From IMG/VR virus record IMGVR_UViG_3300048447_000459, positions 1 to 23,789 of that record: a DNA stretch of 23,789 bases; one strand, 5' to 3'. Below, piece after piece: positions 3,393 to 21,883 of this stretch (position 1 is its first letter; each line of letters opens with the position of its first letter). The position numbers and the translations under genes were made by a program. This DNA comes from a virus. The notes below the pieces were generated by a model. It saw only the letters and a program-made list of their open reading frames with translations. It was not told where the DNA came from and did no database searches.

Positions 3393-4577
3393 TCAGGCGG
3401 TGGCCGCGACGCGCTCGGCGAAGTCGGCCAGGTAGGAGTCGGTGATGCGCTGCTGAAAACCGAGGTCTTCCAACGGCGGTACCGGCGTGTAGTCGTAGTC
3501 GATGCGCAGCTTGCCGCCCTTGAGGGAGGTCTGGGTGTTGAGCTCTTCGTTTAGCCAGGCGCTGCCATCGACAATCAGCCCCAGGGTTTTCAGCTCGCGG
3601 AACTTGGCGTTCAGGCCTTCGATGATGTCTCGTGCAAGGGAGGCGTGCAGGGGCAAATCCACCGCCCATAGGTGCGCTTCGGCCACGGTGTCGGCGAGGA
3701 TCTGGGCGGTGCGGGTGTAGTTCTCGAACGGGAACAGGCTTTCTGGCCCGGCGCAGGTACGCGAACCCCAGAAGCGGTAGCCGTTTTGGTTCACCAGCGT
3801 GGTGACATCGGCGGCGTTGAGCAGCCCGGCATCGGTGTTGGGGCTCTGCAGATCCCAGAACACGTCTTTATTGATACCGGTGACGCCGTTCACCGCCACG
3901 TTACTCAGGGTTTTGTGCCAGCCCACGGTTTGGTCCAGCTTGGCGCGCAGGCCGAGAGCGATGGCCACGGGGCTGATATCCACCGTGTTAGCGTCGTCGG
4001 TATCAAACGCCTGCCACTGGGGCCAGATCACCATCAGCTCACGAGCGCCGAACTGGTCGCGGTAGGCGGTGACCTCGGTGATGGTCTCGCAGCCGTGGGC
4101 GTACACGTAACCAAAGGCACGCAGCTGCTGCAGCACCGCGACCATGGCGGTGGCCACCGGCTGGGTATCCAGGTTAGGCACACCAATAATGCGCGGCGTG
4201 ACGCCCAGCTTCTGCTTGGCGGTGAGTAGCGCCTGTAGCCCGGTGCGCTGGCCTAGCTCGGTGGTGGTACCAATCACGTTGGCGGTGGTGGTTTCGTCGT
4301 CTATGCCTTCATCCACGCGCACCACCACGATGATCGGCTTGGCCTGCTGGCCAATGGCGGTGAGGGTGTCTTTCAGCGTGCCTTGGGTGCCCGCTTTGCC
4401 AATGGCGGTATCCACATTGGTCACCAGGGCGGGCTGGTTGAGGGGGAAGGTGGTGGCGTCCGCATCCGGCGCGGTGCAAACCACGCCAATAACGGCGGTG
4501 GAGACGGTGCGGATGGTGCGCGTGCCGTCGTTGACTTCGGCAACGCGCACGCCGTGGTGGTATTGATCGAGTGCCAT
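3393..4577 (-). CDS. FI: Tail sheath protein FI
   Basis: This 394-residue protein, about the length of P2 FI (~396), begins MALDQYHHGVRVAEVNDGTR, the conserved sheath N-terminus whose strand hands over to neighbouring subunits. Further conserved blocks are STAVIGVVCTAPDAD, GYRFWGSRTCA and a C-terminal LEDLGFQQRITDSYL. It forms the contractile outer sheath. An SD-like AGGAG lies upstream of the ATG at 4577. It is the first gene of its operon, about 100 bp downstream of the late-activator box (4675-4694) and the terminator at 4721-4738, which marks it as a separate late transcription unit like PF in P2. Confidence 0.97.
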   Translation of the reverse strand: MALDQYHHGVRVAEVNDGTRTIRTVSTAVIGVVCTAPDADATTFPLNQPALVTNVDTAIGKAGTQGTLKDTLTAIGQQAKPIIVVVRVDEGIDDETTTANVIGTTTELGQRTGLQALLTAKQKLGVTPRIIGVPNLDTQPVATAMVAVLQQLRAFGYVYAHGCETITEVTAYRDQFGARELMVIWPQWQAFDTDDANTVDISPVAIALGLRAKLDQTVGWHKTLSNVAVNGVTGINKDVFWDLQSPNTDAGLLNAADVTTLVNQNGYRFWGSRTCAGPESLFPFENYTRTAQILADTVAEAHLWAVDLPLHASLARDIIEGLNAKFRELKTLGLIVDGSAWLNEELNTQTSLKGGKLRIDYDYTPVPPLEDLGFQQRITDSYLADFAERVAATA

Positions 4578-4674
4578 GGTGGCTCCTGCGCAGGTTCACT
4601 GTTCGAGTAACGAAAAGGGTGAATTCACGCAGGTATCGTGCGGGGGCTGAGGGGAGGGTGGTAGCGGTGGTGGG

Positions 4675-4694
4675 TGTAAGTGGGGTGGTTTACA
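4675..4694 (-). promoter_or_regulatory. Late-activator (Ogr/Delta-like) box of the FI operon
   Basis: On the minus strand this reads TGTAAACCACCCCACTTACA, a dyad with TGTAA/TTACA arms. It lies 98 bp upstream of the FI start, just after the preceding operon's terminator, at the position of the P2 late promoter PF. Copies occur at 13279, 18974 and 23635. A -10-like GATACC lies at 4637-4632, 37 bp beyond the box. P2 Ogr recognises TGT-N12-ACA; here the spacing is N14. Function is inferred from position and recurrence. Confidence 0.7.
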
Positions 4695-4716
4695 TGGTGG
4701 GGGTCGAGCAGGTACG

Positions 4717-4738
4717 AAAAAGCCCGCCGAGGCGGGCT
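4717..4738 (-). terminator. Intrinsic terminator after the V-to-fibre operon
   Basis: A perfect 8-bp stem (AGCCCGCC / GGCGGGCT) with a 2-base loop at 4721-4738 is followed, on the minus strand, by TTTTT. It lies 19 bp past the end of the DUF4376 gene and before the FI late-activator box, so it should end transcription from the V operon. Confidence 0.85.
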
Positions 4739-4756
4739 GTTGGCTGTTAAGCATTT

Positions 4757-5347
4757 TTAAGCGCCACTCAACGCCTCTTCAAACGCCTGACGAATATTAA
4801 TCGCGTGCAACGCCTCTGCTCCTTCCGCCGCTGCAATCTGATCACTGACCTGCCGTTCCGCTGTAAAGCACGCCTGTACATGCTGCGCTACCGCCTGGGC
4901 GATGGGGCGTAGTTCGGCCTCGGTGACTGTTACCCAGCCATCGGCCGCTTTCCATTCAATCGAATCGACAAAAGGCTGGGTTAGCGACTGGTAAGCGCTT
5001 GTCAGCTGCGCCTGGCTTTCGCGATCTGTGAGGATGCGGGCACCATCGGGCAGTGTTACGCCGCCGGTTTCGATTCGCCAGCGGTGGTCGGCTAGTTCTT
5101 GTAGGCGCGCTTCGCGGCGCTGCTCGATGAGCTTGGCCCATTCCTCGGTATCGATCTCGCGCAGTACGCCGGGCACGTCGGTTTTGCGGTCGTTGGCGAC
5201 TAGGCCAAAGTAGTGCGCGGGGTTGTTGCCTTCCCACCATAAGATGGTGATGTTCTCGACCGGGTCGGCGGGGCCGTGGCGTGTCGGGTATTCGGTGGCG
5301 GGACGACCGTCGCAGGCGTCCACTTTTACAAATTCAATCGGTTTCAT
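4757..5347 (-). CDS. DUF4376-domain tail-fibre-associated protein
   Basis: The 196-residue protein has an N-terminal part (WWEGNNPAHYFGLVAN, TDVPGVLREID) seen in small phage proteins encoded after tail fibres. It is followed by a DUF4376-type region (about 85-190) with 'RRWRIETGG'-like, 'GARILTDRESQAQL' and a C-terminal amphipathic helix ending QAFEEALSGA. It occupies the place of P2 gene G (tail fibre assembly) directly after the H-like fibre and before the operon terminator. It could be a fibre chaperone or a small fibre-tip component; the sequence does not decide. No resemblance to P2 gpG itself was recognised. Confidence 0.8.
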   Translation of the reverse strand: MKPIEFVKVDACDGRPATEYPTRHGPADPVENITILWWEGNNPAHYFGLVANDRKTDVPGVLREIDTEEWAKLIEQRREARLQELADHRWRIETGGVTLPDGARILTDRESQAQLTSAYQSLTQPFVDSIEWKAADGWVTVTEAELRPIAQAVAQHVQACFTAERQVSDQIAAAEGAEALHAINIRQAFEEALSGA

Positions 5348-5359
5348 GGATCACCTCGT

Positions 5360-7543
5360 TTATAGGTAGACGCGGCGGACGGCGCGCGCGCTTTGTGCTG
5401 TTCCCGATTTTTGAACGAGAGTTTCCGTTCCAGACACAAAAGATGCCCTAAATGCGGCGCTTCCACTTTCACTGCTAGACCAGTAGACGACGGCGCCAAA
5501 TGATTCACTTTGGCCGTTAAAGAAAGCGGTTATAATGGTTCTTTCGGGATTATTTGCCGTGTAATTACCGAGCGAGGGTACTACTCGGTTAGATGCACCA
5601 AAGCTGGTGTTGTTACTATCAGTGGTGGGCTTAAACTCTCGATAAAGAGCGCGCAGCTCGTCAATATCAGGGAGTTTCCAGTCAGTATGCCCACCAATAG
5701 TTAATGCTGCTGTAAAATCGGTAGCGTCCTGCCATGACACACTACTGTCGTTCCCCTCTCCCTTTGGACTAACCACAAGCGCGTACTCAGAATTTACTTC
5801 ATCCCGCATAACGCGCACAAAATAGCCGCCGCCAAAAGGCGTGCCGGGTTCGTCGGGCACAAACTCCGCCGCCGTGGTAAATGAACCCTTTCCCCAAGCA
5901 CTCGTTGCGAGATCATGCCCCTGAAACTGCACTTCGACGGTATAGGCGGTGGCTACTTCCAGAATACCGGCGGGGATGACGACGCTGGTTTTGTTTTGGG
6001 CATCGTTCAGCGATGACCAAACCAGGAGCCCTTCAGCGGTTTTGATCTGCCAGTTGGTGGCCAAGTGGGTATCCGCACCGCCGGGGGTGGTGGCGAAGGC
6101 GCTGGCTTCGATTACCGGCGATTCGGGAACGTCGCTGGCCCCGTTCACCGGTGCGGTGATCGCCGGTGTGTTGATGTACTCATTAACGGTTTTGAACGTA
6201 ATGGGTGTTGACCACTCGGAGGCCCCCAGCGTTGCGCCGTGGTGGCGGGCGCGGAGGTAAAGGGTGGTGTCGCGGGGCAGGTCGGTGACGTCCCAGCTTT
6301 CCAGGCTTTCCGTATCGCCTAGCGATTGCTTAACGATGTTGTTGAAGCTGCTGTCGGTGGCGATCTGCCAATCGGTGCTTTGGTGTGTGTCCATGTTTCT
6401 CGGGTAGGTCTGAAAGGTGGACGTCGTGGCGGTGGGCTGGGTGCTGACTGCCGTGGCACCGCCGGTGGGGTTGAGCACCGCCGGGCGGGCGATGGATTGC
6501 GCGCCCACAGCGATGGCGAAGGCGTTTTCGCCACCGTTGCGGCCGACGGTGAGAAAGAGCGACGCATCGGCCGCCCCGGCGGGGATCTCCAGCGTGATGG
6601 TGTTACCGCTGCGGGTGGCGGTGCCCACATCGGTAGCCACGGTGTAATCGCTGAACGCATCGTAATCAGTGATGGTGTAGCTGTTGCTGCTGCCGGGGTA
6701 CACCAAGCTAGGACCATCGAGCGAGACGCGGGAGAGCGTGACCGTACCCACTTCTTCATTGTTGACGAACTCGACCGTGGTGCCGCCTGTGACCGGGGTG
6801 GCGAGCTTCACCTGGGTGGTGTTGAGCGCGCTCCACTGTTGATGGGTTAAGCGCTTGCCGTTGACGTAGATAGCGAGGCCACGGGTGATGGTTTTTTGCA
6901 GATTGAACACATCCTGCTCGCCCACGGCTTGTCGGGTTTCCGTGACGGAATGAACGCGAAGGTGCATGCCCTCGGCTGGGTCGGCCCAAGCGGCGTCGCC
7001 TTCGGCATTGGAGTTTTTGCGCAGCCAATTTCCGGCATTACCACCGGTGGGCAGGATGTAGGGCCGGATCTCTTCGATATCGGCCTTGGTGGCAATGGTG
7101 ATGTAGTCGTCGATCACGGCGGTGACGTTTTGCGCGCTGCCGATCACGGTCACTAGATCGAAGATTTGTTCTACCAGGGTCGCTCCGCCTTCGGCTGGTA
7201 AGAAGTCGCTTTGCTCGGCGCTGTTGCTGTAGGAGTAGAGCCGTTCCTGTTGGGTGTCCGGGTCGCGGGCGAACACACCGATCTCGCGCACAAAGAAGCC
7301 AACCTCGACCCCTTGGTTGGTCATGATGGCCCGGAGCTTACTGGTACCGTCGCCCAGCAGCTCGAAGGAGTGAATCGAGAGGCTCTGGCGTTCGTTGACC
7401 AGGGCGGTGAGGGATTCAGGCGCGCTTGGGGCGCTGCCGTCCCCCAACGCGACACGTAGAAACTGCAGGGGCTGCCCGATCTGTGCCTTGGCCTGCAGGT
7501 TGCGGCCATCGGCGGTTAGGATCAGCCCAGGGAAATTCGCCAT
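5360..7543 (-). CDS. H: H-like tail-collar fibre protein with DUF1566/C-type-lectin-like tip
   Basis: This 727-residue protein begins MANFPGLILTADGRNLQAKA, a phage tail-collar fibre N-terminus (DUF3751-type, about 1-165, with FFVREIGVFARD). This part attaches the fibre to the baseplate, as in P2 gpH. A linker (GNWLRKNSNAEGDAAW) and a 'LAIYVNGKRLTHQQW' block follow. Next are beta-sandwich, fibronectin-like repeats (about 270-560) with the recurring pattern DTHxxTxWQI. The last ~155 residues (from GGGYFVRVMRDE) match a DUF1566 pattern: DWKLPDIDELRALY, VVYWSSSE, and a terminal SARAVRRVYL. That fold is C-type-lectin-like and suits receptor binding. The DNA for the tip (about 5400-5800) is visibly more AT-rich than the rest, which suggests exchange of the tip. 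Expected role: host recognition. Confidence 0.88.
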   Translation of the reverse strand: MANFPGLILTADGRNLQAKAQIGQPLQFLRVALGDGSAPSAPESLTALVNERQSLSIHSFELLGDGTSKLRAIMTNQGVEVGFFVREIGVFARDPDTQQERLYSYSNSAEQSDFLPAEGGATLVEQIFDLVTVIGSAQNVTAVIDDYITIATKADIEEIRPYILPTGGNAGNWLRKNSNAEGDAAWADPAEGMHLRVHSVTETRQAVGEQDVFNLQKTITRGLAIYVNGKRLTHQQWSALNTTQVKLATPVTGGTTVEFVNNEEVGTVTLSRVSLDGPSLVYPGSSNSYTITDYDAFSDYTVATDVGTATRSGNTITLEIPAGAADASLFLTVGRNGGENAFAIAVGAQSIARPAVLNPTGGATAVSTQPTATTSTFQTYPRNMDTHQSTDWQIATDSSFNNIVKQSLGDTESLESWDVTDLPRDTTLYLRARHHGATLGASEWSTPITFKTVNEYINTPAITAPVNGASDVPESPVIEASAFATTPGGADTHLATNWQIKTAEGLLVWSSLNDAQNKTSVVIPAGILEVATAYTVEVQFQGHDLATSAWGKGSFTTAAEFVPDEPGTPFGGGYFVRVMRDEVNSEYALVVSPKGEGNDSSVSWQDATDFTAALTIGGHTDWKLPDIDELRALYREFKPTTDSNNTSFGASNRVVPSLGNYTANNPERTIITAFFNGQSESFGAVVYWSSSESGSAAFRASFVSGTETLVQKSGTAQSARAVRRVYL

Positions 7544-7545
7544 AG

Positions 7546-8232
7546 CTAGGCCCTCGGTTGGATGGTGATGGTGGTGGCAATAAGCGCCGCCGCGCCGGTA
7601 TGTAGCGCGGTGGCCGCTGGGGTGAGCGCGACCCGTGCGGGGTGTACCGTGGTGGTGTTGGCCCGGTGCCAGGCCACGCCGAGCGTGACCGACGTGGCCG
7701 ATGGGCGCGGATTGAGCCGCGAGCGGATGGCCATGTGGGTGCCGGTGTGGGTATAGGTGCCCAGGGTGAACGCCAGAGTGGCCGAGCGCTTGACCTGCAG
7801 CGCAGCGAGCCAGGCGCGGGCGGGTTTGGTGGCGTCGACCATGCGAATAAGGCGCTGGTAATCCGCATCGCTGGCCAGTTGCCCGGTGGTGGCAATCTTG
7901 AAGGTGTAGGGCTGGCCATCGAACTGCCAGGCTTCCAGGATTTCGCCGCCGCCGAAGATCAGCTCAATCACTTCGCGCACGGCGGCGGGGGTGCCCTTGC
8001 GGCGGTGGATGGCCACGGCCGTGGTGATGATTTGGCGCTTCTGCTCGACGCTCCAGGCTTCTTCCCAGCGGTCGACGCTGAATGCCCAGGCGAGCCAGGG
8101 CAGCAGGTGCTCGGGGCAGGTAGCCGGATTCCAGATATCGCGCAGCGGGGCGGGCAGCTCGCCCAGGCGGGCGGTGACTTGCTCCAGCCTGCGCTCCATG
8201 GCGGTGGTGTTGGGCGGTAACAGGCTGTTCAT
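7546..8232 (-). CDS. I: Baseplate/tail protein gpI, with C-terminal extension
   Basis: The 228-residue protein contains the P2 gpI core: LLPPNTTAMERRLEQVTARL, a WNPATCPEHLLPWLAWAFSV block, and RKGTPAAVREVIELIFGG. It is a baseplate component and part of the fibre-attachment region. P2 gpI is about 176 residues, so the last ~50 here (HTGTHMAIRSRLNPRPSAT onward, Thr/Ala-rich) are an extension. Its start overlaps the stop of the upstream fibre gene by ATGA, and the H-like fibre begins 2 bp after its stop. In P2, I follows J directly. Here two fibre-related genes lie between J and I. Confidence 0.92.
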   Translation of the reverse strand: MNSLLPPNTTAMERRLEQVTARLGELPAPLRDIWNPATCPEHLLPWLAWAFSVDRWEEAWSVEQKRQIITTAVAIHRRKGTPAAVREVIELIFGGGEILEAWQFDGQPYTFKIATTGQLASDADYQRLIRMVDATKPARAWLAALQVKRSATLAFTLGTYTHTGTHMAIRSRLNPRPSATSVTLGVAWHRANTTTVHPARVALTPAATALHTGAAALIATTITIQPRA

Positions 8233-11093
8233 GCGTAGGCCTCGAACGCGGTGGTGGCCACTGTTAAGGAGGTGGCCACGCGGGCATCGCCACTGGCGGG
8301 CATGGTAATGCGCGGGGTAACGACGCCGGTTTCGATGGGGATGTTGACGGCTCGGTTGCCCACGGTGAGCGTGACGGTTTGCTGGGTGGCGGGGGCGACG
8401 AACAGGATGCGGTCGCCTGACCGGCTGACGCTGCCCGCCGTGGCGGTGACGCTGTAAGGCGTGCCGCTGTCGTAGTTGGTGATGCGGATCTCCACGCTTT
8501 GGCCGACGTAGATTTTGTTACCCGGCCAACTCAGCGTGGGGATGGTGACGGATTCGATTTTGGTGGCGAACTGGTTGGGGTCGAAGTCTTTGTCGGTCCA
8601 GATTTTATGCCAGGTATCCCAGTTCCCGGCTTTCTTGACCCGGGCGCTGAGGTTGCCGCCGCTATCAAAGTCGGCTGCGAGCTGGAACTGGTAGCTGTCA
8701 CCGTTGCGGTGCGACGCCTGAATCACGTATTGCCAGGTGTGGGTTTTGAAGGGGGTGGCGTGATCCAGATTGGAGCCGTCGTAAAACCCTGACGTGGTTG
8801 GAGCATTCCAGTCTACCCCTGGGTGGCGGCCACGCCCTGCATCATCGGTGATTTTGGCCCACTGGAATTGGCTGGCATGGCGGCCATCCAGGCGGTCTGA
8901 GTCGGTCGCTTTGGCCCCTGCGTCCAGCTTGCTCGCTGGATTGAAGTTGCCGGTGTGCCAAAGCGTAACCCACGGCGTCCAGACGGTGCCGCTATTATCT
9001 TGTAATCGATAAGCGACAATAGGGGTGGAGGCGCTACCATTGCCGTTATAAGAAACGGCATATTGCACCTTTGCCTCACCACTGTATTGGCGTTGTGTTT
9101 CGATAAGCCAAAATGAAGCTCCAGGCGGATAACTACCCAGGTTTCCAGTCGAATAAAGCCCAAAATCACCGACTGAAGCATCATCTACATTGACTCCTGA
9201 CGAGCCGGAATAGTAGCTACCATGCCTAGCCAATCGATCTTGATTTACATCATCAGGTTGGGTGGCAGTATCTGCTTTGGCACCTTGGGTGGCGGTGGCG
9301 AACGCCGATGCATGTTGTCCGTCCAGCTGATCGGCATTAAGACCGGAGCCTGCCCCATCCACAGTGAGCAGCTTGGCCAACACGTCGGCAGCTGTGTAGG
9401 CGCTGGCGTTCAGCTTGGTGCCGATCTGTTGGCTAACCGTGGTGGCAAAGTTGGGGTCGTTCCCCAGCGCTGCGGCTAGTTCATTAAGGGTGTCGAGGGT
9501 GGCGGGGGACGAATCAACTAGCGCTGCCAGCGCGGCATTGGTGAACGCTCTGTACTCGGCTTCGATGGTGGCCAGCTGTTTGCCGTCCAGCATGTCAGCA
9601 TCCAGCCCTGAGCCATGTCCGGCAACGGTGAGCATCTTGGCGAGCACATCGGCGGCGGTGTAGGCGCTGGCGTTGAGCTTGGGAGCGGTGACGGTGTCGG
9701 CGTGTTCTTTGGCGTTTTGCTCGGCTTGATCGGCCGCGGCTTGGTACTCGCCTTCCAGCGTGGCGAGCTGTTTGCCATCCAGCTTGTCGGCATCCACGGC
9801 TTTGGCGGTGGCGTTGAGTTTGCCATTCAGCAGGGTGTCGAGCTGCTGCTGGGTGTAGTAGCGGCTGTCGTGGTCGTGGGCTTCTGCCGGGTAGGCGCTG
9901 GGTTTGCCGGTGACCTCGCCAAAGCTGGGCCAGCGGGTAGCCGTGGCAGGTTTGCCGCTGACTTCTGCCCAGGTGTGGCCATGCACTGCCAGAGCGAAGG
10001 CGGCGGCGTGTAGGCCATCCAGCTTATCAGCGTTGAGTCCTGACCCTTCACCGTGCACCGTGAGCAGCTTGGCGAGCACATCGGCGGCGGTGTAGGCGTT
10101 GGCGTTGAGCTTGGTGCCGATCTGTTGGCTGACCGTGGTGGCGAAGTCGGGGTCGTTGCCGAGCGCGGCTGCCAGTTCGTTGAGGGTGTCGAGGGTTTCC
10201 GGCGATGAACCGACCAGGGCAGCCACGGCGGCGTTGGTGAACGCTCGGTACTCGGCTTCGATGGTGGCGAGCTGTTTGCCGTCCAGCGTGTCGGCATCCA
10301 GCCCTGAGCCATGCCCGGCCACGGTGAGCAGCTTGGCCAGTACATCGGCCGCCGTATAAGCGCTGGCATTGAGTTTGGGCGCCGCCAGAGTGTCGGCATG
10401 AGCTTTGGCGTTTTGCTCGGCTTGATCGGCGGCGGCTTGGTACTCGCCTTCCAGCGTGGCGAGCTGTTTGCCGTCCAGCGTGTCGGCATCCAGCCCTGAG
10501 CCATGCCCGGTCACGGTGAGCAGCTTGGCCAGTACATCACCCGCCGTGTAGGCGCTGGCGTTGAGCTTGGGCGCGGTGACGGTATCGGCGTGTTCTTTGG
10601 CGTTTTGCTCGGCTTGATCGGCGGCGGCTTGATACTCGCTTTCCAGCGTGGCGAGCTGTTTGCCATCCAGTTTGTCGGCATCCACGGCCTTGGCGGTGAC
10701 GTTGAGTTTGCCGCTTAGCAGGGTATCGAGCTGCTGTTGGGTGTAGTAGCGGCCGTCGTGATCGTGGGCTTCGGCGGGGTATACGTCGGGCTTGTCGGTC
10801 ACTTCGCCAAAGCTTGGCCAGCGGGTAGCCGTGTCGGGTTTGTTGAGCAGATCCTCCCAGGCGACATAGGCCCAATCGGTAGCGTAGTCGTCACCGTTCA
10901 CCTTCATCATGACCGCACGAGCGTTACCCCCTTTGGGCACGCCGTGGCCGGGTAGGCCACGCATGCCGACGGCCACGGTGGCCGCCGGGGTGCCGGGCAC
11001 ACGGATATTGGCCGTGCTGATGGTGATAGTGCCGATGTGCTGGGCAACGGCAATGGTACGCACGGGGGCGGTGACATGGACGCTGATGCTCAT
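8229..11093 (-). CDS. Large repeat-containing tail fibre protein
   Basis: The protein has 954 residues from the ATG at 11093, which is chosen because it overlaps the preceding stop as ATGA and because the ~31 residues upstream are Arg/Pro-rich non-homologous sequence. The N-terminus is a short beta region followed by GLPGHGVPKGGNARAVMMKV, a common fibre linker. The centre (about 85-600) is built of repeats such as ASAYTAADVLAKLLTV, GLDADTLDGKQLATLE and ADQAEQNAKEHADT, arranged in a superunit of about 297 residues. A pyocin-knob-like domain follows (about 615-720; YGVW-type ending TVWTPWVTLWHTGNF), then a second similar one, then a beta-sandwich domain that stops abruptly (VATTAFEAYA). It probably forms a trimeric side fibre. 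It lies between the small beta protein and gpI. Confidence 0.87.
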   Translation of the reverse strand: MSISVHVTAPVRTIAVAQHIGTITISTANIRVPGTPAATVAVGMRGLPGHGVPKGGNARAVMMKVNGDDYATDWAYVAWEDLLNKPDTATRWPSFGEVTDKPDVYPAEAHDHDGRYYTQQQLDTLLSGKLNVTAKAVDADKLDGKQLATLESEYQAAADQAEQNAKEHADTVTAPKLNASAYTAGDVLAKLLTVTGHGSGLDADTLDGKQLATLEGEYQAAADQAEQNAKAHADTLAAPKLNASAYTAADVLAKLLTVAGHGSGLDADTLDGKQLATIEAEYRAFTNAAVAALVGSSPETLDTLNELAAALGNDPDFATTVSQQIGTKLNANAYTAADVLAKLLTVHGEGSGLNADKLDGLHAAAFALAVHGHTWAEVSGKPATATRWPSFGEVTGKPSAYPAEAHDHDSRYYTQQQLDTLLNGKLNATAKAVDADKLDGKQLATLEGEYQAAADQAEQNAKEHADTVTAPKLNASAYTAADVLAKMLTVAGHGSGLDADMLDGKQLATIEAEYRAFTNAALAALVDSSPATLDTLNELAAALGNDPNFATTVSQQIGTKLNASAYTAADVLAKLLTVDGAGSGLNADQLDGQHASAFATATQGAKADTATQPDDVNQDRLARHGSYYSGSSGVNVDDASVGDFGLYSTGNLGSYPPGASFWLIETQRQYSGEAKVQYAVSYNGNGSASTPIVAYRLQDNSGTVWTPWVTLWHTGNFNPASKLDAGAKATDSDRLDGRHASQFQWAKITDDAGRGRHPGVDWNAPTTSGFYDGSNLDHATPFKTHTWQYVIQASHRNGDSYQFQLAADFDSGGNLSARVKKAGNWDTWHKIWTDKDFDPNQFATKIESVTIPTLSWPGNKIYVGQSVEIRITNYDSGTPYSVTATAGSVSRSGDRILFVAPATQQTVTLTVGNRAVNIPIETGVVTPRITMPASGDARVATSLTVATTAFEAYA
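9300..10843 (-). repeat. 891-bp-period direct repeat inside the fibre gene
   Basis: The segment around 10809-10843 (fibre motif TATRWPSFGEVT) recurs at 9918-9952 with only a few base changes, an offset of 891 bp or 297 codons. The sequence downstream of each copy continues in parallel: YYTQQQLDTLL, AVDADKLDGKQLATLE, EHADTVTAPKLNASAYTA, then the SGLDADxLDGKQLATIEAEY and LDTLNELAAALGNDP blocks. Within it, the AYTAxDVLAKxLTV motif occurs five times. The second copy lacks one internal sub-block and ends near 9300. The boundaries are approximate. Confidence 0.85.
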
Positions 11094-11446
11094 CGCGTGA
11101 CCCCGGGGCGCACGGTAACGCTGCCTTCTAGCAGGCGGTGGGTATCGGGGCCGGTCAATAGCAGGTCGTAAACCCCTTCGCTCCAACTCAGGTGGCTGGT
11201 CTCTTCGGCGGTGAGGGTGATTTGAATCACCCCACTGGTGGGTTGGTCGACCAGGATGCGGCCGTTTTCGGGGTTGCAGGCCAGGAGGATCTCGCGGGCG
11301 GTGGCACTCTCACGCACCTGTAGGCGCGGGGTGTAGGGAGTGAGATCCATGGGGGTGACGTTATCCCCTTCGCCTTCAGTAAGGGTGAGGTCCAACGTGA
11401 AGGTGGTGTATTGCTCGATGGTTAGGTCGAAGCTTCCGGCGCTCAT
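11090..11446 (-). CDS. Small beta-rich fibre-module protein (BppU-N-like), function unknown
   Basis: The 118-residue protein reads FDLTIEQYTTFTLDLTLTEG, DLTPYTPRLQVRESATAREI, GVIQITLTAEETSHLSW and GVYDLLLTGPDTHRLLEGSV. This is the strand pattern of the small Ig-like/BppU-N-type proteins often encoded just upstream of phage fibres. It is coupled to gpJ upstream and to the large fibre downstream by ATGA overlaps on both sides, so it is translated with them. It may link the fibre to the baseplate. The assignment to a family is by pattern only, and it is absent from P2 at this position. Confidence 0.65.
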   Translation of the reverse strand: MSAGSFDLTIEQYTTFTLDLTLTEGEGDNVTPMDLTPYTPRLQVRESATAREILLACNPENGRILVDQPTSGVIQITLTAEETSHLSWSEGVYDLLLTGPDTHRLLEGSVTVRPGVTR

Positions 11447-12309
11447 GAGTCACCTCGCGTCACGGTTACGCTGATGCCCGTGCAAAAGGGGGCTTGTTGC
11501 TTGTCGCAATGGATGTCAGCCGTGGGGCGCAGTAGCTCAACGGCTTGCACGCCGGGGCGATGCAGCGCGGCATACAGGGCGGAGAGGGGGACATCCCGGC
11601 CGAGGGCGTGCCGTTCAGCGACAAGGCGTTCGGTTTCATCGACGGCGGCATCCTGCACCACGCCTGCATCGGGGCCTTCGTCAATGGTGAGCTGGGCTTC
11701 GACGGTGTAGGCAACGACTGTGGCGCTCTGCACGCTGACGCGGTCGGTGAGTGGGCGCACATCTTCGGCGCCCACAGTGTTAAGCACGCTGGCAAGCAGC
11801 GTGGGGCCTGCGGTGCCGTTACCGGAGCGGGCCAGCACGGTGATCATGACGTCGCCCGGTGCGGGGCTGGTGATACTGGCGTCTTTGATGTTGGGGTCGG
11901 CACCGAGGGCGTGGAAGCGGTAGCCTTCGGCGGGGCCTGCGGTGCTGTAGCCTTCTGGCGATAGCTGGATGCGGCGGCGGTAGTTGGCATCGCTTTCACC
12001 TTCCAGCTTTTGCACGCTGTAATTCGCTCCAATCTGTTCCAGGTCACTACCTCCCGCATAGGCGAGCATGACGGCGCGGGCCGCTTCGTTGATGCGCTGG
12101 CGGAGTAGTAGCTCGCGGTAGGCGTTCTCTTCTAGCAGCTTGACCAGCGGTTCAGATTCGAGAGCCAGCAACTCGGCCATAGCGTCGCGCTCTTCTGCGG
12201 GGGTTAGCTCAATCAGCCGCGCTTTGCGGTCGGCCAGGATCGTCTCAAAGTTCAGTGGCTCGATGATGTTGGGCGCGGGGAGCTGGGAGAGGTCGATGGG
12301 TGTGCTCAC
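11443..12309 (-). CDS. J: Baseplate assembly protein gpJ
   Basis: This 288-residue protein (P2 gpJ ~302) has the baseplate J family features: an N-terminal IDLSQLPAPNIIEPLNFETI, a helical segment LRQRINEAARAVMLAYAGGS, and a C-terminal half with DRVSVQSATVVAYTVEAQLT. It forms the wedge of the P2 baseplate together with W and I. ATGA overlaps join it to W (upstream) and to the small beta protein (downstream). Confidence 0.95.
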   Translation of the reverse strand: MSTPIDLSQLPAPNIIEPLNFETILADRKARLIELTPAEERDAMAELLALESEPLVKLLEENAYRELLLRQRINEAARAVMLAYAGGSDLEQIGANYSVQKLEGESDANYRRRIQLSPEGYSTAGPAEGYRFHALGADPNIKDASITSPAPGDVMITVLARSGNGTAGPTLLASVLNTVGAEDVRPLTDRVSVQSATVVAYTVEAQLTIDEGPDAGVVQDAAVDETERLVAERHALGRDVPLSALYAALHRPGVQAVELLRPTADIHCDKQQAPFCTGISVTVTRGDS

Positions 12310-12656
12310 ACATTCCCCCTTAGCGGCACGGCTAGGCTGACGCTTTCCCCGTTATCTACCCGGCGGCCAGAGATGATCAGGTCAAAGCGGCCGGGGCGTT
12401 GGGTGGAGACTTGCCGGGTGACTTGTTGCACGCGAATGCGCGGTTCCCACTTCATTAAGGCCACCACCGTGGCGGCGTAGGCGCGCAGGGCGGTGGGGCC
12501 GTTCAAGGGCTGATCAATCAGTTCCGGAAGTAGCGAGCCGTACTCCCGGCGCATCACTCGGGAGCCGATGGGCGTGGTAAGAATGTCCGCCACCGATTGC
12601 TGGATATGGGCCAGCGAATCCAACTGGCGGCCGGTGTGTGCGTTCATGCCTGCCAT
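12306..12656 (-). CDS. W: Baseplate wedge protein gpW (gp25-like)
   Basis: The 116-residue protein is the same length as P2 gpW (~115). It has the gp25-like pattern IQQSVADILTTPIGSRVMRR followed by EYGSLLPELIDQPLN and a terminal beta segment (RFDLIISGRRVDNGESVSLA). It is a baseplate wedge subunit that triggers sheath assembly in T4-type systems. Translation is coupled to V by a TAATG overlap; MAGMNAHTG offers a second in-frame Met three codons on. Confidence 0.95.
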   Translation of the reverse strand: MAGMNAHTGRQLDSLAHIQQSVADILTTPIGSRVMRREYGSLLPELIDQPLNGPTALRAYAATVVALMKWEPRIRVQQVTRQVSTQRPGRFDLIISGRRVDNGESVSLAVPLRGNV

Positions 12657-13231
12657 TACACTGGCCCCTGGGTGTTGGCGGTGCCGGGCTGGATGCCGCT
12701 ATGGGTGTGGTCGTGCCCCACGTTTTTGCCGTTGTGAGTCAGGCCGCCGCCTTGCTGGCTGTAGCTGCCTTGCCGGTTGAGCTCGCCGGTGTGCTGGATG
12801 TTGCCTTGCCAGGTGGTACCGCCGGGGGCGCTGATTTCGATGGCACCGGGCAGGCGAATGCGAAGCACGCTATTGGCGTGGTCGTACTCGAACATCCCCT
12901 CATCAGGGAAGATTCTGCGCCACAGCGTGGCGACCTCCGCCGGGGCGGGGTGCGCGTTGGAGCACAGCCCACACAGCACCACACCGGCGGCGGGGTCACC
13001 GCCGGGGGAGAAGATGATCACTTGCTCGCCCTGGGTGGGCGGGTCCCAGTCCCGCGTGGTGCCTGCGCGGCCTTCGATCCACGGCAGCCAGTCCGTTAAC
13101 AGCTCGCCGGTTTTGACGCGCACGCGGGGCGGTCGCGGCGGATCAGCGTCGGCATCGCCGTGATCCACCTCGGCGATGGTGCCGAGGCGGATCAGGTTGT
13201 GCAGCAGGCGGAGGAGTTCGGGAATATTCAT
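12656..13231 (-). CDS. V: Baseplate spike protein gpV
   Basis: The 191-residue protein starts MNIPELLRLLHNLIRLGTIA and contains an OB-fold region (GELLTDWLPWIEGRAGTTRD, GEQVIIFSPGGDPAAGVVL). A triple-stranded beta helix with a TWQGNIQHTGELNRQGSYSQ segment follows. It ends HDHTHSGIQPG, with the H175-x-H177 motif that binds iron at the tip of P2-type spikes. It punctures the outer membrane during infection. It is the first gene of the V-W-J-fibre operon, with a late-activator box 48 bp upstream. No clear SD precedes the ATG. The activator box is so close that the mRNA may have little or no leader. Confidence 0.95.
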   Translation of the reverse strand: MNIPELLRLLHNLIRLGTIAEVDHGDADADPPRPPRVRVKTGELLTDWLPWIEGRAGTTRDWDPPTQGEQVIIFSPGGDPAAGVVLCGLCSNAHPAPAEVATLWRRIFPDEGMFEYDHANSVLRIRLPGAIEISAPGGTTWQGNIQHTGELNRQGSYSQQGGGLTHNGKNVGHDHTHSGIQPGTANTQGPV

Positions 13232-13278
13232 AGCCGCTATCCTGCGGCGGCGTTTGGCGAAGGCGAAGCGGCGGCGGG

Positions 13279-13298
13279 TGTGAATGGGGCTATTTACA
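13279..13298 (-). promoter_or_regulatory. Late-activator (Ogr/Delta-like) box of the V operon
   Basis: On the minus strand this reads TGTAAATAGCCCCATTCACA, with arms TGTAAAT/ATTCACA (6 of 7 paired). It lies in the 76-bp gap between S and V, at the place of P2 promoter PV. A -10-like GATAGC lies at 13241-13236, the same 37-bp gap from the box as at FI. Confidence 0.68.
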
Positions 13299-13307
13299 CC
13301 GAGCCAC

Positions 13308-13766
13308 TTATACCGAGCTTAAATGATGAAGCACTGAATCCATGATGTGCTCTTGATCCAGTGCGGTGAAACCGAGCAGCTCCCGCTGGGCGTACTCGAC
13401 GCGGGGGCCGTCGCGGCTGACGCGATCTTTTAAGCCGCGTTGGTGGGTGGTGGCGATGCGGGCGACGCTGCCGAAGAAACCCACCACGGCGGTGTCGCCT
13501 TGGGCGGTGGCTTTGAGCCATTTGGCGGTGGAGAGTTTGTTGAACATGGAGCGCCTTTTGATGCTGCCTTGCTGGGCGCGCAGGCGCTGTTCTTTGCGCG
13601 GGGCGTAGGGTGTGCCATCCGGGTTGGTTTGGGCGCGGATGCGTTCGCGCTGACGGCGGCGGAGATCCCGCGCCACGTTACGGGCCAGGGTGCGGCGCTG
13701 TTGGTCGTCCAGCTTGGCGAGCAGCGGGCCGACCCACTCCTCTAGTGCTTCCATATTATCCGCCAT
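13308..13766 (-). CDS. S: Tail completion protein gpS
   Basis: The 152-residue protein (P2 gpS ~150) carries the phage virion morphogenesis pattern: MEALEEWVGPLLAKLDDQQR, ARDLRRRQRERIRAQTNPDG, YAPR, a central positively charged stretch, VVGFFGSVARIATTHQRGL, and LLGFTALDQEHIMDSVLHHL at the end. It is needed to finish the head-proximal end of the tail. It overlaps R by 11 bp and is the last gene of the O operon before the V late promoter. Confidence 0.94.
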   Translation of the reverse strand: MADNMEALEEWVGPLLAKLDDQQRRTLARNVARDLRRRQRERIRAQTNPDGTPYAPRKEQRLRAQQGSIKRRSMFNKLSTAKWLKATAQGDTAVVGFFGSVARIATTHQRGLKDRVSRDGPRVEYAQRELLGFTALDQEHIMDSVLHHLSSV

Positions 13767-14250
13767 GGGGGCCGTCCCATTCGGCTACCAGGGTGTACTC
13801 CGCTTGGGCCGCGCTGTCGCGGATCAGTAGCTGCCAGCGGGTATCCGGGCAGCCGGTGGTCTCGAATCGTGGCAAGGCGCGGTCGACCTTAATGTGCCCA
13901 GTCGCGCATTCCACCTTGGCGAGCACCCGTTCGCTAAGCGTTACCCGCAAGGCCACATCCACCGATTGATGACTGAGGATCTCGGCTTCGAAGCGGATGG
14001 CTTCAGCGGGGTCGGCATCGGGTTGGTATTCGGCCAGCCACTGCAGCAGCGGCACGATGATGGTATCTAGGTTCGCGCTGAAGTCGGTGAGCACGAGCTG
14101 GGCGGTGAACTGGTATTCGTGGGTGAGGTTGGGGCCACGGCGAAAGGCGATCCTGCCTTCTTCCACGAAGGTGAGCAGCCGGTCTGGGTCTTTCGCCAGG
14201 GCGGGTACCGCGTTAATCAGGTGAGCGCGTAGCAGGTGGAGCTTCTGCAT
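13756..14250 (-). CDS. R: Tail completion protein gpR
   Basis: The 164-residue protein starts MQKLHLLRAHLINAVPALAK and contains GRIAFRRGPNLTHEYQFTAQ and ADPAEAIRFEAEILSHQSVD, matching the P2 gpR family (~155 residues). It acts with S in finishing the tail for head joining. Its start lies inside the end of the Rz1-like gene (38-bp overlap). Confidence 0.93.
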   Translation of the reverse strand: MQKLHLLRAHLINAVPALAKDPDRLLTFVEEGRIAFRRGPNLTHEYQFTAQLVLTDFSANLDTIIVPLLQWLAEYQPDADPAEAIRFEAEILSHQSVDVALRVTLSERVLAKVECATGHIKVDRALPRFETTGCPDTRWQLLIRDSAAQAEYTLVAEWDGPHGG

Positions 14251-14497
14251 GGTGGGCCTCTTGGCAGGCGATGACGGTATCGACCTCGGCGGCGCACTGT
14301 GCCCAGGCGGCTTCGGTGCGTTCTAGCTGCAGGTCGAGTTCGCCGTTGGTTTCGGGATTACTCGCGGGGAGCGTGCAGGGGCTGGGGGTCGCGCACTGAT
14401 TGATGATAAGCGTCGGCACCGGTGACGGCGGGGCGGCGGCGCATCCGGATAACAGCATCAGGCAGGCGAGAGCCAGCCCAGGCGCGAAGTTCTGCAT
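14213..14497 (-). CDS. lysC: Rz1-like outer-membrane spanin (LysC)
   Basis: This is a 94-residue lipoprotein from the ATG at 14497. Its signal sequence ends ACLMLLSG before Cys19, a lipobox. A Pro-rich stretch follows (AAAPPSPVPTL), with Cys35 and Cys41, which could form the internal disulfide known in P2 LysC. It starts inside the LysB/Rz frame and extends 145 bp past its stop, the overlapping Rz/Rz1 arrangement. With LysB it would bridge the inner and outer membranes and fuse them at lysis. An alternative start seven codons upstream is less likely because it would precede the signal peptide with charged residues. Confidence 0.85.
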   Translation of the reverse strand: MQNFAPGLALACLMLLSGCAAAPPSPVPTLIINQCATPSPCTLPASNPETNGELDLQLERTEAAWAQCAAEVDTVIACQEAHHAEAPPATRSPD

Positions 14498-14780
14498 TTT
14501 CACGGTGTAGCTCCTCAATGGTGGCCAGGCGGTTGGCCGCTGTGCGGGTGAGTGTGGCCTGCTGCTGGGCGAGGGCGCGGCGCTGGCTTTCTAGGCGCAT
14601 GGCGTTTTCCCAGAGCGCATCGATGACCACTTTGCTTTCTGCTTCCCGCTGCTGTGATTGGGCGAGCTGCTGTTCGGCCAGTTCGGCGCGGGCTTCGGCG
14701 GCGTGGGTGCGTTGCCAAAGTGCCCATGTAACCAGCAGCACCAGGGCGAGGATGGCAAGAGCGGCGATTAGGCGGGTCAT
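14358..14780 (-). CDS. lysB: Rz-like inner-membrane spanin (LysB)
   Basis: This 140-residue protein begins at the ATG at 14780, which overlaps the endolysin stop as ATGA. One N-terminal membrane segment (LIAALAILALVLLVTWALWQ, residues 4-23) is followed by a long coiled coil rich in Ala, Glu and Gln. The C-terminus (LRAWAGSRLPDAVIRMRRRP, AVTGADAY) is that of P2 LysB-type proteins. It is the inner-membrane partner of the overlapping lipoprotein LysC. Confidence 0.88.
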   Translation of the reverse strand: MTRLIAALAILALVLLVTWALWQRTHAAEARAELAEQQLAQSQQREAESKVVIDALWENAMRLESQRRALAQQQATLTRTAANRLATIEELHRENAELRAWAGSRLPDAVIRMRRRPAVTGADAYHQSVRDPQPLHAPRE

Positions 14781-15262
14781 GGGGTGATCTCCTGTTCTAA
14801 CCCTGCCAGGCACAGTTCCCGTTCGGTGGCGCGGCGGCTAACCAGCCCGTTGAGCCGTTTTCCCCCGGCGTAAACCCAGCGGCTGAGTTCGTGGCAGGCA
14901 CCGCGTAGGTCGCCTTGGTTGAGTTTGCGCAGCAGGGTGGAGCGGGCGAAGTTGCGGGCCCCGACGTTGTAAACGAACGAGGCCAGCGCGGCGCGGGTGG
15001 GTTCCGGTAGCTCGACCTGAGCGCGGCGATCCACCACCGCGAAGGCGTCGCCGAGATCCTGCTGCAGCAGGGCGGTGCATTCAGCCTGGCTAAGGGTTTG
15101 CCCCAGGCGGGCGGTTTCCGTGTGGCCATAGCAGATGGTCGGGATGCCCACGGGGTCGCGGTAGGCGGTGGGCTCGTACCCTTCATAAAACGACACCACG
15201 GCGGTGGCGATACTGATGGCCCCGGCGGCCAGGCTGACGCCGAGCTTGGTTTTAAGACCCAC
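14777..15262 (-). CDS. K: SAR-type endolysin (lysozyme, GH24)
   Basis: The 161-residue lysozyme of the R21/P1 Lyz type cuts peptidoglycan. The catalytic triad is visible with the expected spacing: E27 (SFYEGYEP), D36 (AYRDP) and T42 (GIPTICYGHT). The N-terminal hydrophobic, Gly/Ala-rich segment (LGVSLAAGAISIATAVVSF, residues 8-25) looks like a signal-anchor-release domain, so export would be Sec-dependent with later release. P2's own K is a different enzyme class member, but the position between holin and LysB is the same. The start overlaps the holin gene by 11 bp. Confidence 0.93.
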   Translation of the reverse strand: MGLKTKLGVSLAAGAISIATAVVSFYEGYEPTAYRDPVGIPTICYGHTETARLGQTLSQAECTALLQQDLGDAFAVVDRRAQVELPEPTRAALASFVYNVGARNFARSTLLRKLNQGDLRGACHELSRWVYAGGKRLNGLVSRRATERELCLAGLEQEITP

Positions 15263-15455
15263 GGCGGTTCTCCCAGTAGTGGCGTAAACGAGTGAGGTAG
15301 CGGGGAATCAGCAGCCCGATTTGTAGCGCCAGGTAGAGCAGGGTTAGCACCGTGACCCAATCGGCGGGCGTCATGCCGCCGACGTGCAGCAGCGAGACGA
15401 TGGCCGGGGGCGCAGCTTTGGCGCTTTCGGTGGTGATTTCAAAGTGGTGGCTCAT
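15252..15455 (-). CDS. Holin (HP1-type, small, single membrane segment)
   Basis: This is a 67-residue protein with a hydrophilic N-terminus (MSHHFEITTESAKAAPPAIV), one clear membrane helix (WVTVLTLLYLALQIGLLIPR) and a basic tail (YLTRLRHYWENRRGS). The pattern, including AAPPAIVSLLHVGGMTPADW, resembles small holins of the HP1 family. It lies between tail protein X and the endolysin, the place of P2 holin Y, but is shorter and unlike Y. It is likely to form the lysis pore or depolarise the membrane so that the SAR endolysin is released. Confidence 0.8.
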   Translation of the reverse strand: MSHHFEITTESAKAAPPAIVSLLHVGGMTPADWVTVLTLLYLALQIGLLIPRYLTRLRHYWENRRGS

Positions 15456-15478
15456 ACGGGCCTCGGCGGTTTAGAACG

Positions 15479-15703
15479 TTAATCCCACAGGTTCACCGTG
15501 GGGGCGCGTTGGGTGGCCTGGGGAATGGCAGGCAGGTTGACCGGCGTGCCGTGGGGCAGCATCGGCCCCTGTTCTGCCAGCCCGGGGTTGGCGGCCAGCA
15601 CTTGCTCGGTGACGCCTCGGGTGGTGCCATAGACGCGGTAGCAAATGGCATCCAGGGTGTCGTGCTGCTGGGCGCGCACGGTGGTGGATTGAGAGCGGGT
15701 CAT
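15479..15703 (-). CDS. X: Tail protein X (LysM-like)
   Basis: The 74-residue protein has RAQQHDTLDAICYRVYGTTR, LAANPGLAEQGPMLPHGTPV and NLPAI, the LysM-like fold of P2 gpX (~67 residues). It is a tail component, probably near the tail hub. The start overlaps the stop of L by ATGA. Confidence 0.93.
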   Translation of the reverse strand: MTRSQSTTVRAQQHDTLDAICYRVYGTTRGVTEQVLAANPGLAEQGPMLPHGTPVNLPAIPQATQRAPTVNLWD

Positions 15704-16185
15704 ATCAGCTCGACCGTGCTGTGTGGCCGCCCTTCGATCTCGCTGATCGCCCAGGCGGCGTCGCGGCGGTAGCCATCGGCGGGGGCTTGGAGCTGTTCGC
15801 CTCGCTCCCGGGCGCTGTTGGTGGCGTCATAATCGGCGTAGTGCTCCAGCAAGCTGGCGTGAGCGGTGGAGTACACGGCGCGCAGGTAGAGCACGTTGAA
15901 CACTTCCGGCGACTGCCACACAGGAATGGGCAGCGAGGCCATGGTGGGGTAGCCCGCTTCGACCTTGGCCTGCTGCCAGTGGCGCAGCACGCGGTTGACC
16001 GTGATCATGGCGGCCTTCAGGGCGCTTTCGATGCGCGGCTGAGTGATGGTGCTGTCTAGCCGGTGGGTGGCGCGAAAGTCGCTGGGCTGGATGTCTGGCC
16101 AGAAGCCGTTGTTTTCGAGCGGGCTGTCGAGCGGCTGCTCGGTGGTGTCGCTTTTGGGTGTGCCTGCCGAGATAAAGCTGCTCAT
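15700..16185 (-). CDS. L: Head completion protein gpL
   Basis: This 161-residue protein begins at the ATG at 16185, chosen because AGGAGG lies 4 bases upstream. The 19 residues that precede it in frame are basic and unlike the family. Conserved blocks are NNGFWPDIQPSDFRATHRLD and ALKAAMITVNRVLRHWQQAK, plus a C-terminal YRRDAAWAISEIEGRPHSTV as in P2 gpL (~169 residues). It closes the filled head. A 146-bp gap separates it from M, more than elsewhere in the operon. That gap contains a short dyad, GGCGTTAAAACGCC (16269-16282), and nothing else recognised. Confidence 0.94.
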   Translation of the reverse strand: MSSFISAGTPKSDTTEQPLDSPLENNGFWPDIQPSDFRATHRLDSTITQPRIESALKAAMITVNRVLRHWQQAKVEAGYPTMASLPIPVWQSPEVFNVLYLRAVYSTAHASLLEHYADYDATNSARERGEQLQAPADGYRRDAAWAISEIEGRPHSTVELI

Positions 16186-16331
16186 CGTGCCTCCTGGTAG
16201 CGGGTAAACGTGTTTCGCGCGGGGTCGGGCGCGATGAATCAAAAGGGGGTGGGCGGCGTTCGAGCGTGGGCGTTAAAACGCCTGGCTCTTACGTCGCGCC
16301 CCCTGACGTCGGCGGTCGACTCGGTTGGCCG

Positions 16332-17012
16332 CTAGCCCGTGGGCTGAGCAGCAGCGTTCTGTTTGCGTTCACGTTCCAGGCGTTCGAGGTCTTTCTTCAC
16401 GCCAATGCGGTCGTTGAGCGAAAGGGCACGCTCCAGTTGGTGCTGGGCGTCGTCTAGCTGGCCGGTGGCTCGGCAGGCGTAGCCCAGCGCTTTGTGCAAC
16501 TTGGCGCGGATCTGGTCGTGCATATCCGCATCCCGGGTGAGCGCTTCCACATCGACTAAGTGAACAAGCAGGGCGGTGGTGTCTGCGCCTTCTTCATCGA
16601 GCTGCTTCAGCGCTTGGTCGGCGACTTCCTCGGCGATGATGGCGGCGGTGCCGCGCTCGAATTGATCCGGCGGGGTAAGGCCGTGCTTGGTGGCGTACTT
16701 GGCGATGGCAATGGCCCCGGCGAGGTCGCCGGCATCGATGCGCCAGAGCATCACGCGCATCAGCACGTCGTCTTGCGCGCCCTGGCCCGCTTCCAGGACG
16801 CCGGTGATGTATTCGGCGTACTTGGGCAGGATCTCGCGCTTGATCTCGGCTTTGCGCTCCATGGATTGGGTGGATTTGAGCAGGCGATAGTCTTCAAACA
16901 GCGCGGCTTGCATCAGCTCATACGCTTCGCCTTGCATGGGGGCTTCTCCCGCGTCAGCGGCGGCGAGGGCCGCGCTGACGCGTTCAAAGTGGCGGCGGGC
17001 TGGGCTGGTCAT
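16332..17012 (-). CDS. M: Terminase small subunit gpM
   Basis: The 226-residue protein (P2 gpM ~247) starts MTSPARRHFERVSAALAAAD. It has YRLLKSTQSMERKAEIKREI, EYITGVLEAGQGAQDDVLMR and WRIDAGDLAGAIAIAKYATK, the conserved phage small terminase/endonuclease pattern. A TPR-like C-terminal helix pair follows (HKALGYACRATGQLDDAQHQ). With gpP it recognises and cuts cos. It follows N after 9 bp. Confidence 0.95.
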   Translation of the reverse strand: MTSPARRHFERVSAALAAADAGEAPMQGEAYELMQAALFEDYRLLKSTQSMERKAEIKREILPKYAEYITGVLEAGQGAQDDVLMRVMLWRIDAGDLAGAIAIAKYATKHGLTPPDQFERGTAAIIAEEVADQALKQLDEEGADTTALLVHLVDVEALTRDADMHDQIRAKLHKALGYACRATGQLDDAQHQLERALSLNDRIGVKKDLERLERERKQNAAAQPTG

Positions 17013-17021
17013 CGTGTCTCC

Positions 17022-18071
17022 TTAACCGTTCACTGCTGCTGGGGACATCTCGATGTTTTCCACCAGGCAGCCCGCGCCGAAGTCTTCCACCACGTAGGCG
17101 TCGTTGGAGGACTCGTAGTTCTCAATGCGGTTGCGCTTGGGGTTTTCGGTGACGAAGCGGCGGCGGGCGCCGTTCTGCCAGTAGACCGAGAGGTTATCCA
17201 GGGTGGTGACCATCAGCGCGTTATCGGGGAAGAAGGGCACATCCATGCCTTGCAGCCCGCCGATGCGCTTCTGGCTGATCACTAGGTCGGCGGCCAACTG
17301 CTCGCTGGGCGGTAGCTGGTTGAGCAGCGGGAAGTACTTATCCGACATCAGGTTGCGGCCGAGGATGACCACTAGACCGGGCAGGCGGCGGAACCAGGGG
17401 GCGATGAGGCTGTTCACCACGTCGTAGACCAGGGCATTTAGCGTGGCGTAGTCGCCAACGATGCCTCCCGGGATGGTGTCGTTGGGTGTCGGGTCGATCA
17501 GCACTTTGCCGTTGGTTTTACCACCGGTCATCACTCGTGCCGGTGACTGGGTGCGGTAGTGCTGCAGCCAGCCGATGTTGACGTCTTGGAGGTACGGGTT
17601 GGCGACCGGGTCGGTTTGCACGGCGGCGGAGGTACCGTTGAAGCCGATCATCATGCGATCCAGCGCCTGCTGGCGAACGATGACATCGCGCACCATGGCC
17701 TGGAAGTTGGGGAACTTGGCCCAGGCATCCAGCTTGGCGTAACCCAGGTGGGTGTCGAATTCGGTCATTCGGCATTCGTAGCCCTGAGCATCCAGCGTGG
17801 TGAGGTCGCGGGTTTTGCGATCCTGGTTGGCGACGTTGGTACGGGCGGCGATGGGGCCGGTAACGCCGAGGGCGAGCTTTTCGCCTTTCAGCTCATCGAC
17901 GCCGACCATGTTGATGCGCGAGAGGAAGTCGCTGGATTCCTGAATGCGCTTTTCCAGCCGCTGCTGGATGGTGGGGTCGACGGCGAATTTCTGGGTGGCG
18001 TCCGGGACGCCGTTGAGCTTCGCCACCTGGGCGGCGAAGTTGTTGAAGTGCTTGCGGGTATCGTTACGCAT
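17022..18071 (-). CDS. N: Major capsid protein gpN
   Basis: The 349-residue protein (P2 gpN ~357) begins MRNDTRKHFNNFAAQVAKLN. It has the P2-type conserved segments ESSDFLSRINMVGVDELKGE, GWLQHYRTQSPARVMTGG, LVVILGRNLMSDKYFPLLNQ, AADLVISQKRIGGLQGMDVP and NYESSNDAYVVEDFGAGCLV. This is the HK97-fold capsid subunit, and in P2 it is cleaved near its N-terminus by gpO. It lies 9 bp downstream of O. Confidence 0.97.
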   Translation of the reverse strand: MRNDTRKHFNNFAAQVAKLNGVPDATQKFAVDPTIQQRLEKRIQESSDFLSRINMVGVDELKGEKLALGVTGPIAARTNVANQDRKTRDLTTLDAQGYECRMTEFDTHLGYAKLDAWAKFPNFQAMVRDVIVRQQALDRMMIGFNGTSAAVQTDPVANPYLQDVNIGWLQHYRTQSPARVMTGGKTNGKVLIDPTPNDTIPGGIVGDYATLNALVYDVVNSLIAPWFRRLPGLVVILGRNLMSDKYFPLLNQLPPSEQLAADLVISQKRIGGLQGMDVPFFPDNALMVTTLDNLSVYWQNGARRRFVTENPKRNRIENYESSNDAYVVEDFGAGCLVENIEMSPAAVNG

Positions 18072-18080
18072 GGGCGTCTC

Positions 18081-18893: not shown

Positions 18894-18973
18894 GGTCGGG
18901 CCTCGGTGAGTGGGTGGGCGTTTGACTGCGGTCAGGTTCCCCGCAGTGGGGCCTTGGCTCAATGAGGGCTGGG

Positions 18974-18993
18974 TGTAAGTGGTGCTACTTACA
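18974..18993. promoter_or_regulatory. Late-activator (Ogr/Delta-like) box shared by divergent O and P
   Basis: TGTAAGTGGTGCTACTTACA consists of two perfect 7-bp inverted arms and a 6-bp spacer. It lies between the starts of O (minus) and P (plus), as the P2 promoters PO and PP do. It is the only fully symmetric copy of the box in this window and the only one that would serve both directions. Confidence 0.75.
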
Positions 18994-19039
18994 TCGGGCG
19001 GGGCAATCGTGACCGTGCCTGCGCGGGTACGCTGGCGGC

Positions 19040-21858: not shown

Positions 21859-21883
21859 AAAAGCGCCTGGCATGACCAGGCGC
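21855..21883 (-). terminator. Hairpin after Q, oriented to stop leftward transcription
   Basis: A perfect 8-bp stem (GCGCCTGG / CCAGGCGC) with a 5-base loop at 21863-21883 is flanked on the left by AAAAAA. On the minus strand the hairpin is therefore followed by TTTTTT. No T-run follows on the plus strand, so it is a better terminator for transcripts coming from the right than for the P-Q message. Confidence 0.7.

Follow-up and report, generated by a model that had tools for sequence, protein, structure and literature searches.

The late promoters PF, PV, PO and PP of phage P2 respond to Ogr, or to Delta of satellite P4, through a site described as TGT-N12-ACA (PMC3931495), which the P2 PO and PF sites themselves fit only loosely. 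A wider element, TGTTGT-(X)13-ACAACA, is known for the Ralstonia phages phiRSA1 and phiRSY1 (PMC5694545); the N13 width is already known, and sites wider than that of P2 are not new as such. The B protein of phage 186, also a zinc-finger activator, has sites at pV, p12 and pJ (NC_001317), which differ in that they end in CCA and form weak dyads. For an N14 spacing, no published report was found in the literature covered, which was incomplete, and the paper describing the nearest annotated relative of the phage analysed here is silent on promoters and Ogr in its main text (PMC11448403).

The window, that is, the whole stretch of 23,789 nucleotides that was analysed, is a partial 23.8-kb virus record that contains the greater part of the late genes of a P2-like phage. 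Family searches identified the genes FI, FII, V, S, O, P and Q, and the P2 order of head and tail genes, together with a sheath, portal and terminase of the P2 families, places the phage in the Peduoviridae. Of the annotated relatives, the closest are OR820920 (Bacillus phage vB_BpuM-ZY1, hereafter ZY1), which shares about 94% DNA identity with the window across the matched parts, and PQ368759 (Halomonas phage vB_HboP_4908, hereafter H4908). A Halomonas-type host is most likely, because close prophages are present in Halomonas, Vreelandella, Chromohalobacter and related genera. The record of ZY1 names Bacillus pumilus as the host, yet the matched parts of ZY1 are about 94% identical to a Halomonas-type phage, and its host label may need revision. 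Among the other contents of the window, the collar/fibre-like open reading frame at 8229-11186 contains several near-repeated modules (LNASAYTAADVLAKLLTV...DADTLDGKQLATLE); a 91-residue open reading frame at 23013-23288 was considered as a regulator and dropped, having no PHROG or Pfam match. An Rfam search gave no match. The features on which the analysis depends are as follows.

3393-4577, minus strand: FI, tail sheath, gene 1 of the PF operon (family search)
4675-4694, minus strand: putative Ogr-class operator of PF, TGTAAACCACCCCACTTACA; predicted -10 CACGAT at 4635-4640, +1 at about 4628
12656-13231, minus strand: gpV, baseplate spike, gene 1 of the PV operon, predicted leaderless (family search and -10 geometry)
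13279-13298, minus strand: putative Ogr-class operator of PV, TGTAAATAGCCCCATTCACA; predicted -10 CAGGAT at 13239-13244, +1 at about 13231-13232 (the V start codon)
18081-18893, minus strand: gpO, scaffold/protease, gene 1 of the PO operon (family search)
18934-18939, minus strand: predicted -10 of PO, GAACCT
18974-18993, no strand: putative Ogr-class operator common to the divergent PO (minus) and PP (plus) (matrix and position)
19028-19033, plus strand: predicted -10 of PP, TACGCT; +1 at about 19040, the P start codon
19040-20818, plus strand: gpP, large terminase, gene 1 of the PP operon, predicted leaderless (family search and -10 geometry)
22844-22913, no strand: conserved block past Q/dam, probably the cos region, as judged from its position and its conservation in most P2-like relatives
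23331-23588, minus strand: 5' end of host dusA and upstream DNA, 96% identical to the intact Vreelandella lionensis dusA locus
23635-23654, minus strand: one-base-off fourth copy of the box, 29.6 bits, in host DNA, -10 out of register

Exact TGT-N14-ACA occurs only three times on the two strands of the window, at 4675, 13279 and 18974, and these positions are the three late-promoter gaps, one ahead of FI, one ahead of V and one separating O from P, as expected of P2-type late promoters. About 3.3 occurrences of the bare motif are expected by chance in a sequence like the window, so TGT-N14-ACA proves nothing by itself; the significance comes from the placement in the three late-promoter gaps and from a likeness that extends well beyond TGT and ACA. 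On a 24-bp matrix built from the orthologous sites of 11 relatives, with the window excluded, the three boxes score 33.9, 34.8 and 36.8 bits and the copy at 23635 scores 29.6, compared with 13.2 for the next best place and 11.5 for the best score over 30 first-order shuffles. ZY1 and H4908, which are complete, and nine long contigs each contain three sites of at least about 29 bits, with everything else at or below 16 once opposite-strand readings of the same palindromes are excluded. The three operators of the complete relatives, ZY1 among them, lie in the same places as in the window, and the equal-scoring copies elsewhere that would have spoken against the boxes are absent from the matrix scan of both phages.

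The initial annotation had reported four TGT-N14-ACA copies, a family taken to mark every late promoter position. The count holds for 4675, 13279 and 18974, which correspond to PF, PV and PO/PP, whereas the plus strand at 23635-23654 reads TATAAGTGGGGTGGTTTACA, with TAT in place of TGT, and marks no late promoter of the phage. PO and PP have one operator in common, so that three are enough for the four promoters. The remark that all four copies open with TGTAA and contain CNCCA on the minus strand is correct for the window; among relatives CNCCA is not invariant, and some PO/PP sites are perfect palindromes, such as TGTAAGTAGCGCTACTTACA in Halomonas phage 4908. The proposed site two bases wider than that of P2 is found at all three boxes, and the N12 spacing of P2 occurs in the window only as one unrelated instance, at 9001. 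The half-site TGTAA, unlike that of P2, is consistent with the new specificity that had been suggested.

The copy at 23635 lies outside the phage. Since 23331-23588 matches host dusA and the reading frame MTKQNPAEAARRFSVAPMMD is broken at this junction, the prophage ends near 23330, and the element is situated beyond the attachment site, with the start of dusA about 240 bp downstream of it. Its layout recalls that of a PF promoter module, except that the -10 does not fall in register. Another Halomonas genome (L300) has the same element, accompanied by a terminator, in front of an intact dusA, and no ZY1-like genes were detected within about 10 kb of it. Its 29.6 bits on the matrix had made it a candidate for a functional late promoter driving a cargo gene of this phage, an idea given up once the dusA junction had been identified; its position on the host side of that junction, the copy at the other dusA locus away from phage genes, and the lack of A35 and T39 (defined below) in register make such a role highly unlikely. 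The copy is probably a relic at an integration hotspot rather than a promoter of this phage. A relative of the ZY1 "SOS response" gene (about 85% identity over most of its length) is found at 1662-2004 of L304, close to V. lionensis dusA, and the locus seems to hold several phage relics.

The geometry of the three boxes was examined by numbering downstream from the base after the last base of the promoter-proximal ACA, which is index 0. Among 117 distinct sequences downstream of V, FI, O and P operators, 111 carry A at index 35 together with T at index 39 (36/39 for N13 and 72/74 for N14), compared with 0 at one base nearer. These two bases can be read as positions -11 (A) and -7 (T) of a -10 element of the sigma-70 type. 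Applied to the P2 record, in which the A is at index 35 or 36, the rule gives the starts of PF, PO and PP exactly and that of PV within 1 nt; in phage 186, the predicted and annotated starts differ by no more than 1 nt at pV and 2 nt at pJ. Because the near half-site stays 35 nt from A(-11)nnnT(-7) whatever the width, the extra one or two bases lie on the distal side, and the near half-site is locked to the core promoter from P2 through the Halomonas phages. The predicted dyad centre is about 56-57 bp before +1 in the window, near the -55 position known from P2, where the corresponding values are 55.5-57.5. The window is also like P2 in its gene positions, in having one PO/PP activator site, which the P2 record annotates, and in the weak -10 elements equally far from the proximal half-site; it is unlike P2 in having a 20-bp site instead of 18 bp, the half-site TGTAA and a much better palindrome. 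A search for sigma-70 promoters in window positions 4500-23789 found 0 compared with 4.1 expected, in keeping with P2-type Ogr-dependent late promoters, which lack a sigma-70 consensus. A -35-like TTGAGC (18957-18962, minus strand) is present 17 nt before the PO -10 and absent from PV, PF and PP; such a hexamer can also be seen in KS14. PO may have some basal activity, as judged from its sequence.

The width of the operator was surveyed in 37 IMG/VR records plus ZY1, H4908 and P2 by locating FI, V, O and P with tblastn and listing every upstream TGT-Nw-ACA. In this set the width is constant within a phage and different between phages: N14 (20 bp) in phages of Halomonas and Chromohalobacter type; N13 (19 bp) in those of Kushneria, Salinicola and Marinobacterium types; and N12 (18 bp) in one more distant IMG/VR record. 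Phages of Pseudomonas, Burkholderia and Ralstonia also belong to the N13 class. N12 is the width in the named phage Fels-2, and N13 that in Dobby (phiCTX type) and KS14. phiRSA1 and phiRSY1 resemble the window phage and its relatives in having sites wider than those of P2, four late promoters, an ogr homolog away from D and int/att beside cos, and differ in combining N13 with TTGT half-sites where the window has N14 with GTGTAA. The dyad was not found at the late promoters of four Shewanella-type relatives that have Ogr (G028, G030, G031 and G033), and the published sites of Smp131 show no exact TGT/ACA at the coordinates given.

The specificity of the operator was assessed by searching 2.9 million viral contigs for exact occurrences of a 22-base operator pattern, which gave 65 matches. 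About two thirds of these precede FI, V or O/P, at distances that recur, and the remainder comprise one unrelated recurrent sequence and scattered matches. A separate 21-base pattern, TGTAANNNNCNCCANNNNACA, whose spacing was off by one base, gave no matches. The recurrent 22-mer, TGTAACTAGCACCACTTACACC, occurs in about a dozen contigs (L229, L230, L233-L235, L238 and others) and was put aside as an unrelated family, its host contigs lacking the tested P2 genes. In 82 genomes of the genus Halomonas, a strict pattern gave six matches, four of them in known P2-like prophages, and the reversed-pattern control gave 0. The match in G127 is probably due to chance; its neighbours are an AlpA-like regulator (named by eye) and unrelated genes.

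An Ogr-like activator had been proposed in the initial annotation, with its gene expected near gpD. A gene for the Ogr/Delta zinc finger (PF04606) is present in 39 of 45 relatives, with scores of 50.6 bits in ZY1 and 40.8 in H4908 against a cut-off of 26.3, and the relatives' protein retains CX2CX22CX4C; the other six relatives searched, several of which are fragments, gave no Ogr match. Together with operators at the P2 late-promoter positions, this occurrence supports the proposed activator class. The expected location was wrong for the closest complete relatives: in ZY1 and H4908, ogr is found in the early operon directly before a primase-type gene, about 7-8 kb from D, whereas in P2 it is next to D. 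PF04606 had no match in the window, a partial record that ends before the ogr region, and we infer the phage's own Ogr from its relatives for this reason. A PDB sequence search with Ogr returned no meaningful match. Across relatives, the operators diverge in step with Ogr when the terminase is corrected for (partial r 0.67, p 0.0002), and correcting for seven other proteins one at a time leaves a partial r of 0.51 to 0.75. The most telling case of joint change in operator and Ogr is G042, in which the terminase keeps 96% identity to its ZY1 counterpart while Ogr has only 42%, and in which all three operators, including O-P, are changed from GTGTAA to the TTGT type.

Taken together, the three boxes are very probably the operators of the PF, PV and PO/PP late promoters of a Halomonas P2-like prophage, bound by an activator of the Ogr class. 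Dyads of the form TGT...ACA are common for host factors, and TGT-N12-ACA is used in papers on PpsR/CrtJ, which would be in keeping with binding of the boxes, and gating of the late genes, by a dimeric host factor of the CRP/FNR kind or some other. The operators, however, are wholly different between phages of related Halomonadaceae hosts and follow the phage activator, and they are all but missing from the 82 host genomes outside prophages, so that control by a host factor is extremely improbable.

The tracking of operators with Ogr leaves some room for another protein of the same phage as the binder, Ogr merely travelling with it, since the divergence of gpD and of the primase shows partial correlations with the operators, given Ogr, that are about as high. 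Shared ancestry and linkage therefore form part of the signal, and the test backs Ogr without singling it out. Against a different binder, the -10 spacing is the same as at the Ogr promoters of P2 and the P2 record itself annotates activator sites here. The P2 precedent is Ogr, and we know of none for another phage protein; we regard this substitution as very unlikely. The width classes would be an artefact of alignment if one half-site were truly conserved and the other TGT arose by chance, and the proximal half-site is indeed the better anchored one, while the P2 PO and PF sites are poor dyads. However, 30 of 40 phages have a single width across their three promoter windows, compared with 0 in 200 shuffles, and in the Halomonas clade the distal half-sites are conserved along with the proximal ones, up to the perfect palindromes at PO/PP, which makes an artefact very unlikely.

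According to this model, the Ogr/Delta zinc finger, a product of the early operon, would bind the dyad and recruit RNA polymerase to promoters with weak -10 elements, at three of which no -35 can be recognised. The promoter-proximal half-site would be locked to the polymerase, and the distal half-site would have moved outward relative to the N12 of P2, by two bases in N14 and by one in N13; with the distal half-site shifted, the activator must tolerate, or have evolved, another half-site spacing. PO and PP would use one common operator, as in P2. On balance, we favour the view that at least three discrete spacing classes of Ogr exist (18-, 19- and 20-bp dyads) with differing half-sites, in which only the proximal protomer is locked to RNA polymerase and the distal one shifts by single base pairs, producing a natural collection of mutually orthogonal phage activator-promoter pairs.

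The same geometry bears on translation. The start codons at 13231 (gpV) and 19040 (gpP) coincide with the predicted +1 and are kept in nearly all relatives; for V, 32 of 36 promoters place an ATG at index 46 or 47, and for P, 34 of 35 do so, with a further one at 48. In the P2 record, the transcription start of V is the first base of V. The gpV and gpP mRNAs are therefore predicted to be leaderless or near-leaderless, and both proteins would be translated from such messages. To our knowledge, a leaderless mRNA for a large terminase has not been described.

For P2-like phages in general, these results would supply a start-site rule from sequence alone, in which a dyad of any width is located and 35 nt are counted from the near half-site to -11A, and the textbook TGT-N12-ACA consensus becomes an annotation rule for late promoters, under which the mRNAs of the large terminase and of the baseplate spike are expected to be leaderless. 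The comparison also offers a way to approach how an activator that is small and has a single zinc finger can read a dyad of varying spacing, and which residues set its specificity; natural exchanges of the kind seen in G042 supply pairs already suited to such tests.
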